DNA from: Terriglobia bacterium
GTDB lineage: Bacteria; Acidobacteriota; Terriglobia; UBA7540
Assembly (NCBI GenBank): GCA_030041095.1
Contig: JASHON010000192.1
Span: 1-35,649 of the forward strand
Direction of reading: 5' to 3'
Length of the DNA stretch: 35,649 bases
Both the position numbers and the translations under genes were made by a program. Under the pieces are notes generated by a model. That model ran no database searches and was not told the DNA's origin. It saw nothing but the letters and a program-made list of their open reading frames with translations. Shown piece after piece: positions 30,709-34,755 of this stretch (within the stretch, counting starts at the first letter, position 1; each line of letters begins with the position of its first letter).

Positions 30709-30993
30709 GACTCAATTCCTCCCACCGAAGTGATGGCAGGTGGATTTCCAAAGTGCCGGGTTGAAAAGATTGCATTAAAATCAATGAGTTGTAAGAAGCT
30801 TGCCCGAGGGCTTGGGGCCCTGATGGGCGGATTTTGCCGGGCAAGACTGGGCAAAAGTTTGTTGCCGGTCGTTCTTTGTCCTTGGCCAGTGGTTAACTAT
30901 CGAGCTTACTTTCAATAACTTGCTGGGATAGGCGGCAACGAACATCGATAAGTTGTGTGCAGTCAACAAGTTACTGGGTTTGTTGGTAATGCC
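30709..30993. other. Non-coding region between flgF and the IS1595 unit
   Basis: This gap must hold the flagellar operon promoter (reading left) but I see no good GG-N10-GC or TAAA/GCCGATAA element. Near 30910 lies a degenerate copy of the dispersed repeat, TCAATAACTTGCTGGGAT, followed at about 30963 by a better copy. There is no credible gene. Confidence 0.5.
30963..30987 (+). repeat. Dispersed ACTTACTGGGTTTGTTGGT repeat, left-border copy
   Basis: AGTTACTGGGTTTGTTGGT with a preceding TCAACA differs by one base from the copy at 34701-34725 and lies in the same orientation. The two copies lie just outside the inverted terminal repeats of the IS1595 unit. The repeat is itself partly self-complementary (CAACAA near one end, TTGTTG near the other). 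Confidence 0.7.
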
Positions 30994-31016
30994 ACAAAAA
31001 TTTGGCATAAATATAC

Positions 31017-31045
31017 TTGACAGACCACTGCTTCTAGGCCATACT
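31017..31045 (+). promoter_or_regulatory. Transposase promoter inside the left terminal repeat
   Basis: A perfect TTGACA (31017-31022) is separated by 17 bases from CATACT (31040-31045, 4/6 to TATAAT). Transcription would begin at about 31052, on the ATG at 31051, so the mRNA would be leaderless. No ribosome site precedes this ATG. The -35 box lies in the inverted repeat, so transposase binding could repress the gene. Confidence 0.6.
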
Positions 31046-31050
31046 TAGTC

Positions 31051-32031
31051 ATGGCCAGCGCACCCAAGACCTTACAGCAAGCGATTCAGTTCTTTAGCAA
31101 TTATGAAAACTGCAAAGAGTTCATGGTCGCGTTGCGCTGGCCGGACGGCAAAGTAAAGTGCCCGCAGTGCGGCTCCGATCACGTCGCGTACCTGGAAAAG
31201 GCCCACGTGTGGAAGTGCTACGCGAAGCACTCCCAAGCCAAGTTTTCACTGAAGACTGGAACTCTGTTTGAAGACTCCCCACTCGGTCTGGACAAGTGGC
31301 TCCCTGTGATGTGGATGGTAGTCAACTGCAAAAACGGCGTATCTTCCTGGGAAATCCACCGCGCGATGGGCGTCACCCAGAAGACGGCGTGGTTTATGCT
31401 TCAGCGTTGCCGCCTCGCCATGCAGGATGATCTCACCGGCGGAACACTCGGCGGCGAAGTGGAAGTCGATGAGACCTTCATCGGCGGCAAAGTGCGCAAC
31501 ATGCACAAGGACCGAAAAGCGCGAGTAACTGCGGAACATCGCAACACTGGCAACAAAACCGTTGTGCTCGGAATCCTCGAACGAGCCAGCGAGAATAAGC
31601 CCAAGCGGGTTCGCGCGAGTGTTCTCGCGGATCGCAAGAAGGCCAGCATTCAGCCTGAAATTGCCGCTCACGTTGAGAAAGGCGCTTCGATCCACTCAGA
31701 TGAGCATGGCGAGAATTGGCGCATGGATGATTACGAGCACAACATCATCAACCATCTCGAAGGCTACGTCGAAGGTAATGTCCATACCAACGGAATCGAG
31801 AACTTCTGGAGCCTGCTAAAGCGCACCGTGGGCGGCACGTATGTGAGCGTGGAACCGTTTCACCTGTTTCGCTACGTCGATGAGCAAGCTTTCCGGTTCA
31901 ATTACCGGAAGGATCTGAATGACTCTGACCGCTTTGTGATCGCGATGAAGCAGATTGTCGGCCGACGTCTGACTTACGCCGAACTCACCGGTAAGACGGA
32001 AGAGAGTGCGAGGCAAGAGAGCATCAATTAG
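31051..32031 (+). CDS. IS1595-family (ISXO2-like) transposase
   Basis: The 326-residue protein has an N-terminal zinc-ribbon remnant (C37-x2-C40, then C56-x3-H60) for end binding, followed by KTGTLFEDSPLGLDKWLPVM and the helix-turn-helix-like WEIHRAMGVTQKTAWFMLQR. The ISXO2 nuclease domain follows, with D140 in EVDETFIGG, D217 in SIHSDEHGENW, and N247/E250 in HTNGIENFWSLLKR (third catalytic position). The C-terminal QAFRFNYRK is typical. The gene is uninterrupted and looks active. It converges on the dCTP-deaminase-like gene with a 37-bp gap. Confidence 0.93.
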   Translation: MASAPKTLQQAIQFFSNYENCKEFMVALRWPDGKVKCPQCGSDHVAYLEKAHVWKCYAKHSQAKFSLKTGTLFEDSPLGLDKWLPVMWMVVNCKNGVSSWEIHRAMGVTQKTAWFMLQRCRLAMQDDLTGGTLGGEVEVDETFIGGKVRNMHKDRKARVTAEHRNTGNKTVVLGILERASENKPKRVRASVLADRKKASIQPEIAAHVEKGASIHSDEHGENWRMDDYEHNIINHLEGYVEGNVHTNGIENFWSLLKRTVGGTYVSVEPFHLFRYVDEQAFRFNYRKDLNDSDRFVIAMKQIVGRRLTYAELTGKTEESARQESIN

Positions 32032-32068
32032 CAAACCAGGACGGCTGAAGCGCGGAAGGCGAGTAAAG

Positions 32069-32725
32069 CTAACGCCTCAGAGCAACAAGCAGAAATATAA
32101 GAATCAGTCCTAGCGCTACGATCATCGGAACAGAATATGAGAGATTCCGCACGCTCTTACGCAACTCTCCGACATCAGTTGCAAGAGCCGTGAGGGTTTT
32201 CATTACCTGTCCGAGAGTGAGACCCTCAGTCTCGACCAACTCTTGAATATCTTTGGCGGTTATTCCGTCGCCTTTTCTATCGCCGGAATACGGTTTACTG
32301 ACCGGCTCGCTGAGACGAAAGAATTGAATCGTAAGGAAGGGCTCTTGGTAGCTCAACGCTATAGAGCGGGGAGCTAAATTAACGACACGCACAACGAGAA
32401 TCCCCGGCCAGCCGGGATCAATCTGTGGACCAGACAGAAGCAGAAGCCCCTTTTGGGCGTACTGCGACCGCAATCCGATCTGGCCCGCAATTTTTGAGCT
32501 GAGCGTCACGCGTTCCCGTGTCTCGATGACGGCGAACTCACCGGGTTCGATGATGAGGACGCCCTTCTCGTTCAGAATTGTAATGTCCTTCGATGTACTG
32601 GAGAAGGCGCGTTGTCCAACGGTCAGGTCACAGCTTGCGGGCTCAACTTTTAGAAAATCAGGCGGATCAAGGACAATGTCGCGCGTTTTAAGCGCTACTC
32701 TTATCTGATCATCTGTCATTAACAT
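32069..32725 (-). CDS. Membrane-anchored dCTP-deaminase-fold protein lacking catalytic residues
   Basis: The 218-residue product aligns with Dcd over residues 1-150: MTDDQIRVAL, VEPASCDLTVG, GLRSQYAQKGL and QIDPGWPGILVVRVVN. Compared with E. coli Dcd from memory, R110-S111 are kept (R86-S87), but R115 is Q91 and the catalytic E138 is R113. Deaminase activity is therefore unlikely. Residues 150-190 form a charged helical region and 197-216 (MIVALGLILIFLLVAL) a C-terminal transmembrane helix, not part of normal Dcd. A trimeric scaffold or nucleotide sensor tethered to the membrane is plausible (inference). ATG 32725 lacks a good ribosome site. A TATAAC box (reverse of 32748-32753) and an AGGGA/TCCCT palindrome (32730-32742) lie just upstream. 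Confidence 0.75.
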   Translation of the reverse strand: MLMTDDQIRVALKTRDIVLDPPDFLKVEPASCDLTVGQRAFSSTSKDITILNEKGVLIIEPGEFAVIETRERVTLSSKIAGQIGLRSQYAQKGLLLLSGPQIDPGWPGILVVRVVNLAPRSIALSYQEPFLTIQFFRLSEPVSKPYSGDRKGDGITAKDIQELVETEGLTLGQVMKTLTALATDVGELRKSVRNLSYSVPMIVALGLILIFLLVALRR

Positions 32726-32787
32726 GGGAAGGGAATATCCCTCTCATGTTATACCGTTTCGCTATTTCGCGTTGGATAGCGCGGCTA

Positions 32788-32982
32788 TCACTTCGCGGCT
32801 TGTTTTGACTTCGATTTCGGTCCGCGCTTATTGGGGTTCTTCGCGGCCTGTTTTCGATGCTCTTCGAGACGCGCCTGAATCACCGCATGCGGAATCGAGA
32901 TCGCGGCCTTCACTGCGCTTCTGAAGCGCTCAAATGCTTCCGGGCCTTCATGCATTTCCGCGCTCGGCTTCATCGGATCCAT
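32788..32982 (-). CDS. Small basic protein paired with the HEPN gene
   Basis: The 64-residue product is MDPMKPSAEMHEGPEAFERF with a continuing SAVKAAISIPHAVI helix and a Lys/Arg-rich tail (KNPNKRGPKSKSK). The pattern EGPEAFERF...(I/V)PH...E.RKQAA...RGPK is one I recall from many short acidobacterial ORFs of unknown function. It starts 7 bp after the stop of the HEPN-motif gene, in the geometry of a toxin-antitoxin pair. An antitoxin or nucleic-acid-binding role is only an inference. A 62-bp gap with a possible promoter follows before the Dcd-like gene. Confidence 0.65.
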   Translation of the reverse strand: MDPMKPSAEMHEGPEAFERFRSAVKAAISIPHAVIQARLEEHRKQAAKNPNKRGPKSKSKQAAK

Positions 32983-32989
32983 CGTAACA

Positions 32990-33880
32990 CTATGCTCTCA
33001 GGCCGCCACGTGCTAGATGTCGCATAAACGCACAAGCGTGACTGTAGATGTTTTGCGCGCGCCCGTCATCGTAGCTGTCGCGACCATGCATAACATGGTT
33101 ACGCCATGCATCCTTGAAGAACATGAACTCGCACGCGGCCTCGGAGTAGAATTTCTGTTTGTCTCTCCAGTCGGCCCCGAAGGTGGAACTGTCGATCTTT
33201 CTGATCTTGGATTCGAGCCGCTCGATTATGTTGTGCCAATTCTCGTGAGTAAAAGGCTCTGAAAAAACGGTTGCCATCGCTGCCAGCCCATATTCGAGGA
33301 CTCGCACCAAGTGAAAGACACAGGCATCGTTGTAGCCGCAGCCATAGCAATTCCCAGCTAGATGCATGTCTCGAACGGATTGAGGAAATGCGTTGAGCGC
33401 TTCTACGCCATATGCCGGATCTTCCACGGCCGTGTCGAAAGACCGCATAAACTTCGCTTTCTCGGGCTCGATGTAAACGAAGAACTCCCGGCTCAACTCC
33501 TGCTGGTACACAGCACTAATGTGCTCAATCGAAGAACGGGCCTGCCCGTATGTATGAGGCTTGGACTCGTAATCGTCGATTGCCCACTTCAGTAGGTCCG
33601 TGGTCACGGTAAACCCTAGGAACTCGGAATCTCCGCGCAGTTGTTTCAAATGGGCGAGGATTATCTTCAGATCTTCATCCTTAATGCTTACTTGAGGTGT
33701 AACCAGATTAGGAATGGCCATAGTCAACGCTTGGAGCGTCCGACCGTTTTGAACTAAGTTGTGTGCGGCTATTCGTTTCACAATGTCCCACAACGTCACG
33801 AGCCCGTGTGGATTCTCTTTGCAGAGGCAGGCTAGTGGCGATTTCGGGCTGGCTGCGGGATTGGACACGTCCTGATGCAC
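32990..33880 (-). CDS. HEPN-motif protein (possible RNase toxin)
   Basis: The 296-residue helical protein ends with FFKDAWRNHVMHGRDSYDD, in which R260-N-H-V-M-H265 is an R-x4-H motif preceded by an acidic/aromatic helix, as in HEPN ribonucleases. A central CYGCGYNDACVFHLVRVLEY helix belongs to a widespread uncharacterised family with an AWRN-x-x-MH ending (recalled). The first 160 residues are helical, without known motifs. The start codon is GTG 33880, with no strong ribosome site; a shorter N-terminus is possible. It is probably the upstream gene of a three-gene unit with the 64-residue protein and the Dcd-like protein. Confidence 0.65.
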   Translation of the reverse strand: MHQDVSNPAASPKSPLACLCKENPHGLVTLWDIVKRIAAHNLVQNGRTLQALTMAIPNLVTPQVSIKDEDLKIILAHLKQLRGDSEFLGFTVTTDLLKWAIDDYESKPHTYGQARSSIEHISAVYQQELSREFFVYIEPEKAKFMRSFDTAVEDPAYGVEALNAFPQSVRDMHLAGNCYGCGYNDACVFHLVRVLEYGLAAMATVFSEPFTHENWHNIIERLESKIRKIDSSTFGADWRDKQKFYSEAACEFMFFKDAWRNHVMHGRDSYDDGRAQNIYSHACAFMRHLARGGLRA

Positions 33881-33954
33881 CTGTTAGGCTGAAATCAGGC
33901 GGGTTGTTCAGTGGTGGAAACACTGAGCGGTCCGTAGTAGAGTCCGAAACATTG

Positions 33955-33977
33955 AGAGGCCGGCTTGTTCGGCCTCT
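33955..33977 (-). terminator. Hairpin between cargo genes
   Basis: AGAGGCCG and CGGCCTCT form a perfect 8-bp stem with a 7-base loop in the 143-bp gap between the two outer cargo genes. The downstream U content is low on both strands, so it would be a weak or Rho-assisted terminator. It may separate the outermost gene from the HEPN unit. A second small stem, TCAGTG/CACTGA, lies 30 bp away. Confidence 0.4.
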
Positions 33978-34023
33978 TCGCATTTCCAGACTAGCAAAAG
34001 CCAACGGGACGGAGAATGTAGCC

Positions 34024-34650
34024 CTAACCCGAAGGGTCTCCGCGTAACCACAGAAACTTGTCGAGATCCTTAAAAGAAATGTCCTCCAGATGGTAGTAGC
34101 AGCGGAACCTCAGCATCAAAGCGTAAAACTCTGGATACCCCCAGTCGCCGGAAAGTTTGAAGCCACCCGAGAACGCGTCCCAATCTTTTCTATGAAGTTT
34201 GCGGAGGCACGTAAAGTAATTCTGAACGTGGCTATCCCAGATTGGATAAGCATCTTGCCGGTGCCAACTTGCGTACTTGGTGGCGAATGCAAAGCGGTTT
34301 TTCTTGCGCTTCCCAGTAAATTGCGTCGTGCTGATGGCGTTGACAATTTCGAGGGAACGAGTTTTGAAGGCCTGATCCAGATTTAGCCGAGGAATGCATC
34401 CGGCAACATCGAACACGTTAGGCTGATCGCGTGCTCGCATGGGGATCAGCGTTGAGTAAAGATCGTTGAGCGCAACCACCTTCAGCAATACCTGCGCTTC
34501 GTTCGTGTTCTCGGGATACTTGGCAAAGAGATCCAACAGAGCAGCTTCGACGATCTTAGTCTCGCTGTCGGCATCACATTCCTCGCGCGCTTTTGCAATA
34601 CCTTCCCTGCTCGGCAACTCAAACTTGGCGCAACCCATGCGCGCGATCAT
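34024..34650 (-). CDS. Unknown cargo protein with FATKYASWH / YPIWD motif
   Basis: The 208-residue soluble, mostly helical protein has no signal peptide or membrane segment. The most distinctive part is FAFATKYASWHRQDAYPIWD (residues about 122-141), which resembles the FASKY..H...YPIYD motif of poorly characterised proteins I recall from accessory islands. No fold or activity can be named with confidence. The C-terminus (YPEFYALMLRFRCYYHLEDI) is aromatic-rich. ATG 34650 lies 9 bp inside the right terminal repeat; M5 at 34638 is an alternative. Transcription probably starts within or next to the terminal repeat. Confidence 0.65.
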   Translation of the reverse strand: MIARMGCAKFELPSREGIAKAREECDADSETKIVEAALLDLFAKYPENTNEAQVLLKVVALNDLYSTLIPMRARDQPNVFDVAGCIPRLNLDQAFKTRSLEIVNAISTTQFTGKRKKNRFAFATKYASWHRQDAYPIWDSHVQNYFTCLRKLHRKDWDAFSGGFKLSGDWGYPEFYALMLRFRCYYHLEDISFKDLDKFLWLRGDPSG

Positions 34651-34700
34651 ATCACGGATGGTCAGGGAAGTATATTAACGCCAAAAATTTTCGTTTAATA

Positions 34701-34725
34701 TCAACAACTTACTGGGTTTGTTGGT
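34701..34725 (+). repeat. Dispersed ACTTACTGGGTTTGTTGGT repeat, right-border copy
   Basis: TCAACA precedes ACTTACTGGGTTTGTTGGT. It is in the same orientation as the left-border copy at 30963-30987 and the reverse of the two copies near 2344 and 2454. It lies just outside the right inverted terminal repeat. Confidence 0.7.
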
Positions 34726-34755
34726 CATGGTTTTGTAGCATGCTGAAAAGCGCCC

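Follow-up and report, generated by a model that had tools for sequence, protein, structure and literature searches.

Dcd and dUTPase proteins are trimers, and in the E. coli dCTP deaminase Dcd we take residue E138 to be catalytic and R115 to be phosphate-binding, with D128 and the C-terminal lid presumably acting in their generally accepted roles. The structures of the Thermococcus pacificus dUTPase (8y1w, with dUMP) and of P45 (9ln0/9ln3) were deposited as dUTPases and have Met at the position of E138. Since these archaeal dUTPases lack E138, loss of this residue argues against dCTP deamination and not against dUTP hydrolysis, and its absence is not in itself the sign of a dead enzyme. In the context of phage defence, DefensePredictor units with 5hmdU kinase and thymidylate synthase domains are described as validated in E. 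coli, and the units or domains predicted there include MazG, MazG-C, dUTPase, nucleotide-modification-associated (NMAD) and UDG (PMC13092281).

The locus considered here lies in a stretch of 35,649 nucleotides (the window) from a Terriglobia bacterium of the Acidobacteriota (assembly GCA_030041095.1, contig JASHON010000192.1). Its gene of interest encodes a DCD/dUTPase-fold protein with a C-terminal membrane tail, which we read, with a probability of roughly 0.5, as a membrane-tethered trimeric nucleotide sensor carried as IS1595 cargo. The intact ORF of 657 bases is cargo of an IS1595-family transposon of about 3.7 kb (30996-34690), where it sits between the transposase and the right terminal repeat, bearing out an early suggestion that the homologue is mobile. 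The features of the transposon and its flanks are as follows.

30904..30991, plus strand: left part of an interrupted dispersed genomic repeat (repeat comparison)
30996..31027, no strand: left terminal inverted repeat; a repeat with the TACTTGAC core also flanks related elements
31051..32031, plus strand: IS1595-family transposase, 326 aa (PF12762 132.8 bits; NF033547 162.4 bits, cut-off 75)
32069..32725, minus strand: CDS of the DCD/dUTPase-fold membrane protein, 218 aa (ORF, PF22769)
32788..32982, minus strand: 64-aa basic ORF, with tblastn matches beside IS1595 transposases at three other loci (L170, L172, L174)
32990..33880, minus strand: 296-aa cargo protein, 24% identical (E 8e-18) to cargo of another IS1595 element (L178)
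34024..34650, minus strand: cargo ORF of 208 aa, matching no Pfam or NCBIfam family
34659..34690, no strand: right terminal inverted repeat (78% over 32 nt)
34701..34729, plus strand: right part of the interrupted dispersed repeat (repeat comparison)

On either side the transposon is bordered by one half of a dispersed repeat, which stands uninterrupted at other places in the genome, and this identifies the segment as an insertion; an 8-bp target-site duplication was sought at the transposon ends, where the flanks are the dispersed-repeat halves, and no clear repeat was seen. In other Acidobacteria, most related transposases have 1.0-3.6 kb of cargo behind them and then a matching terminal repeat whose core is TACTTGAC-like. 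The 64-aa ORF recurs in some of these elements and the 296-aa protein in one; the cargo otherwise differs, and some of it resembles, by eye, DNA methyltransferases, a ParB-like protein or HNH proteins. The window element has the transposase, the inverted repeats and the placement of cargo between transposase and right end in common with other IS1595-family passenger transposons, and differs from them in carrying a DCD-fold gene. An IS1595-type transposase fragment also neighbours the gene of the closest relative of the window protein (L061, 65% identity). An Rx4H motif (WRNHVMHG) in the 296-aa cargo protein calls HEPN domains to mind; the protein has no Pfam match.

Within the gene, the following parts could be assigned; clade A in the third line is the window protein's own group of relatives.

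32285..32725, minus strand: DCD barrel, residues 1-147 (predicted model, alignment with 8y1w)
32453..32455, minus strand: codon of Q91, at the position of Dcd R115 (alignment to E. coli Dcd)
32411..32434, minus strand: SGPQIDPG signature, residues 98-105, including D103 (Dcd D128); G, Q, D, P and G are invariant in clade A
32387..32389, minus strand: codon of R113, at the position of the Dcd catalytic glutamate E138 (alignments to E. coli Dcd)
32138..32239, minus strand: heptad-patterned helix, a coiled-coil-like stalk, residues 163-196 (heptad pattern, model helix)
32072..32137, minus strand: predicted C-terminal transmembrane helix, residues 197-218 (hydropathy)

The protein scores 59.8 bits against the Pfam DCD profile PF22769 (curated cut-off 27), which places it in the DCD superfamily, and 86.3 bits against the NCBIfam equivalog TIGR02274 'dCTP deaminase', below the cut-off of 92.8. 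Of the classical dUTPase profiles, TIGR00576 gives 19.5 bits (cut-off 102.55) and PF00692 no reported match; the PADLOC antiphage profiles do not match it. Alignment with Dcd and dUTPase families upheld what the preliminary description had read from the letters: the IDPGW and GLRS motifs are kept (R86-S87 on E. coli R110-S111, D103 on D128, Y146 on Y171), and R113 (CGT, minus strand 32389-32387) aligns with E138 by both phmmer and MAFFT, so that no Glu occupies the catalytic position. R115 aligns with Q91 (CAA, minus strand 32455-32453), the lid reads DRKGDG, and the E. coli C-terminal lid residues K178/Y179/Q182 are gone; with R115 and the lid residues lost, nucleotide binding by the window copy may be poor. 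In comparison with Dcd and the bifunctional DCD-DUT enzymes (E. coli, M. tuberculosis, M. jannaschii), the window protein therefore has the fold, D128, the RS motif and Y171 in common, and differs in the replacement of E138 and R115, the lost lid and the gained membrane tail.

Having neither the Glu at E138 nor the Arg at R115 of a dCTP deaminase, the window protein is, as its sequence supports, no such enzyme. That it could be an ordinary dCTP deaminase with another residue in place of E138 is suggested by its general similarity to Dcd (86 bits to TIGR02274), and is highly improbable given that this score falls below the equivalog cut-off, that E138 is absent family-wide and that R115 is lost in the window copy. 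The earlier description of a dead homologue that is not a deaminase holds in its second part, for the deaminase reading is opposed by the missing E138 and the TIGR02274 score; catalytic deadness is not established, as P45-type dUTPases lack E138 too. More generally, annotation by DCD domain over-counts dCTP deaminases. A housekeeping role for the window gene was considered and set aside, as the host genome has a double-domain DCD protein elsewhere (L030, G000:C85).

Behind the barrel, the predicted model (25 clade members, pLDDT 88) has a short helix at 157-167 and an unbroken helix at 171-217. The heptads extend from the barrel to the membrane segment: hydrophobic residues occupy 90% of the a/d positions in the window protein (82% for the family), where other phases give 10-70%. 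Residues 192-218 form a hydrophobic segment with a Kyte-Doolittle peak of 2.86, so hydropathy supports a membrane-spanning C-terminal helix, with one TM helix predicted. A charged helix followed by a single transmembrane helix had been proposed at the outset, and the stalk and tail agree with it. The barrel of the model matches dUTPase P45, the T. pacificus dUTPase, E. coli Dcd and Mtb Dcd with Z of about 20-22, the closest structures being 8y1w (Z 21.9, rmsd 1.5 over 147 residues) and 9ln0/9ln3. With the archaeal dUTPases it shares 32-34% identity over the barrel, a TM-score of about 0.9 (target-normalised), the RS and IDPGW motifs, PYxG and the absence of Glu at E138; unlike it, they are without stalk or membrane helix and keep R115 and the YQG lid. 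By analogy with the fold, the window protein is probably trimeric.

Relatives were sought in 84,980 species genomes and in viral contigs with the scan pattern [VLS][SAT]G[FPL][QH][IV]DPG[WFY], in which the E138 column is not included. The 98 relatives counted fall into three groups: clade A (36), clade B (55) and group C (7). In the tree, clade A groups with three long-branched tailed proteins (support 97/96), the tailed sister clade B is supported at 98/91 and the canonical Dcds at 95/95, and the remaining long-branched tailed proteins (C) are scattered over several places. Clade-A relatives are 31-65% identical to the window protein over full length and occur in Acidobacteria, Actinobacteria, Chloroflexi, Planctomycetes, Nitrosotalea, Methanocellales and Mu-like phage contigs, the last so assigned from their Mu-type transposase and terminase genes. 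The clade-A DCD genes of these contigs (L141-L145) lie in some cases between the transposase and terminase genes. Among isolated phages in INPHARED, relatives of the barrel only were found, none covering 80% of the query, and the tailed form was not seen.

This census showed that the features of the window protein recur in dozens of relatives and so are not due to chance. Glu at E138 is found in 0/36 clade A, 0/55 clade B and 0/7 group C proteins (0/98 overall), as against 17/19 canonical Acidobacteria Dcds; a hydrophobic helix at the C-terminus occurs in 29/36, 50/55 and 7/7 respectively (86/98), as against 1/23 canonical Dcds. The missing Glu and the membrane tail therefore go together. Asp at D128 is kept in 36/36, 55/55 and 6/7 (97/98), and the base-loop signature is SGPQIDPG in clade A and SGFHVDPG in clade B, a conservation that is partly selected for, as the scan pattern favours the SG..DPG signature. 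This loop differs from that of Dcd and P45, and a signature that is fixed but unlike theirs is expected for a conserved, altered ligand. The window protein has the marks of clade A, namely the SGPQIDPG signature, no E138 and the C-terminal membrane helix. The replacement of R115 by Q91, also pointed out in the preliminary description, is true of the window copy and not of most of its clade, where 34/36 relatives keep Arg (3/55 in clade B). Loss of E138 is thus family-wide, while R115 to Q and the loss of the lid distinguish the window copy from most of clade A. Clade B (rhizobia, Pseudomonas, Bacteroidetes and others) shares with the window protein the E138-less DCD barrel, the stalk and the membrane helix, and differs from it in its base loop, in the loss of S111 (kept in 4/55) and R115 from most members, and in its operons with 5hmdU kinase, MazG, TS and TIR-like genes; the fold, D128, signature and tail are retained.

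The likeness to archaeal dUTPases raises the main alternative to a sensor: a membrane-anchored P45-type dUTPase that cleaves dUTP (or modified dUTP) to the monophosphate, its tail serving only to localise it. We regard this as possible but rather doubtful. The best structure and sequence matches are the T. pacificus dUTPase and P45, with Met at E138, and the window protein has the P45-type combination of an E138-less barrel with RS, D128 and Y171. Most clade-A relatives retain S111, R115, D128 and Y171, with lids of the form QG(Q/x) resembling the YQGS of P45, and no classical dUTPase (PF00692) was found in the host genome. The window copy itself, however, departs from P45 at R115 (Q91), in the C-terminal YQG lid (DRKGDG) and in the uracil-pocket loop, which is SGPQ in the window copy and GSFAW in P45. 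Clade B is tailed and yet mostly without S111 and R115, which points to selection beyond hydrolysis, and the winged-helix variants described next fit regulation better. Since the P45-type residues are kept by most of clade A and neither by the window copy nor by clade B, a dUTPase is likelier for proteins of the L061 type than for the window protein.

Most clade-A members carry a membrane helix after the barrel and stalk, and three (L084, L086, L145) carry a winged-helix-like domain there; of these, L084 is from the complete Nitrospira moscoviensis chromosome and L145 from a Mu-like phage contig. L084 and L145 give Pfam HTH matches with E of 0.0003-0.002, under the curated cut-offs, and L086 was assigned by alignment; a further homologue (L090) ends at a contig edge at the same point as these variants. 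A model of the winged-helix form built from four sequences has pLDDT 55 overall, with helices 237-279 at 70-80. Given weak HTH matches and a model reliable only locally, a swap of output domains behind one DCD barrel is likely rather than demonstrated. Sensors are usually constructed in this way, with interchangeable outputs behind a single barrel, and a DNA-binding domain is needed by a sensor and not by an enzyme, so on both counts these variants favour sensing. L084, L086, L090 and L145 are candidate nucleotide-responsive transcription regulators. For two other homologues (L087, L091) a HicB-like C-terminal part was considered, and Pfam gave no support for it.

For the tailed proteins, the favoured sensor would work as follows. 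The barrel pocket, the old active site, would hold a pyrimidine deoxynucleotide, or a modified one, without deaminating it, and pocket occupancy would be relayed to three transmembrane helices by the coiled-coil stalk. A membrane-tethered trimer acting as sensor or scaffold was the initial proposal for this gene; its membrane tail is upheld by hydropathy and its sensor role favoured by the output swap, and the trimer is probable from the fold. Here we infer the trimer, the ligand, the signalling and a role against phage or other mobile DNA.

Should the gene be transposon cargo without present function, drifting since its capture, the extra substitutions at nucleotide-binding positions of the window copy would be explained, as would a truncated, stop-containing clade-A relic in another Acidobacterium (L026, G047:C53 9323-9508). 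The window ORF, tail and signature are intact, however, which makes drift unlikely, as do the substitution rates. Between the window gene and L061, pN is 0.25 and pS 0.84 per site (synonymous sites saturated), and the clade-A pair L064 and L065 gives dN 0.048, dS 0.73 and dN/dS of about 0.07; non-synonymous changes are strongly under-represented relative to silent ones, indicating that the protein is maintained. The window gene was absent from the one same-genus genome in which it was sought.

Where the family touches on defence is best seen in clade B. The preliminary description had drawn this link through active dCTP deaminases known in phage defence, and that connection is weak: these are AvcD toxins (PMC10511110), with a zinc cytidine-deaminase fold that is not known to be related to Dcd. 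The clade-B neighbourhood is the better link. At 40/55 clade-B loci a gene for a 5hmdU-kinase/dTMP-kinase-like protein, MazG+MazG_C, Nmad2, thymidylate synthase or a ThsB-like TIR protein lies within 6 kb, and at 42/55 one of these, or either of two recurrent genes without known identity, is adjacent on the same strand. No such partner gene was found near clade A (0/36 loci) or in the window, and a Pfam and PADLOC scan of clade-A neighbours for recurrent partners gave scattered single matches, mostly to housekeeping genes. The clade-A gene stands alone among unrelated genes, so that a defence link for the window gene comes by homology to clade B only. DefensePredictor units share the domains of clade-B neighbours, and clade A and the window gene lie outside such units; the DefensePredictor main text describes no tailed, E138-less DCD protein (PMC13092281). 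A membrane-anchored DCD/dUTPase-fold family was likewise not described in the open literature searched, which for the defence papers was their main text, and the family thus appears not to have been described previously. A distant blastn search of complete E. coli genomes did not recover the clade-B gene pair.

A different role in signalling would be that of a regulator or decoy of trimeric dUTPases or Dcds, which mixes with, or is bound by, host Dcd or phage dUTPase in a Stl-like manner. Trimers of the dUTPase fold are known signalling partners, as in the induction of Stl by phage dUTPases (reviewed in PMC12524310), and one Peribacillus locus (L019) has SIR2, tailed DCD and dut genes side by side. 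No partner gene is conserved beside clade A, however, and interface mixing between distant trimers is a supposition, which leaves this reading improbable. The Peribacillus genes lie in a row on a P. frigoritolerans plasmid (6387-9440), and the tailed DCD among them is a group-C protein with two hydrophobic helices.

Returning to the sensor reading and extending it to the whole family, the tailed, E138-less DCD proteins might, very tentatively, form a large class of sensors, bound to the membrane, that recognise pyrimidine deoxynucleotides, perhaps ones modified by phages, hmdUTP for example. Clade B would then do the sensing for an immune operon centred on nucleotides, and clade A would consist of sensor-effectors acting on their own, which transposons and Mu-like phages disseminate and which disturb the membrane in response to a change in the nucleotide pool. 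Conversion of enzymes to sensors in nucleotide metabolism is a recurring theme of bacterial immunity, and the tailed DCD family is widespread, mobile and often annotated 'dCTP deaminase'. On plasmids of Rhizobium, Bradyrhizobium and Acinetobacter, clade-B proteins are annotated as hypothetical or as 'deoxycytidine triphosphate deaminase'; plasmid clade-B genes accompany UDG, ImmA/IrrE and C1-peptidase genes, and in Bradyrhizobium lie near Shedu. Of the clade-B neighbour genes tested, ThsB is the only one in PADLOC. The clade-B neighbourhood (L016-L018, L092-L140) also holds genes for a protein of ~262 aa, one of 160-200 aa, ImmA/IrrE and an AcpS-like protein.
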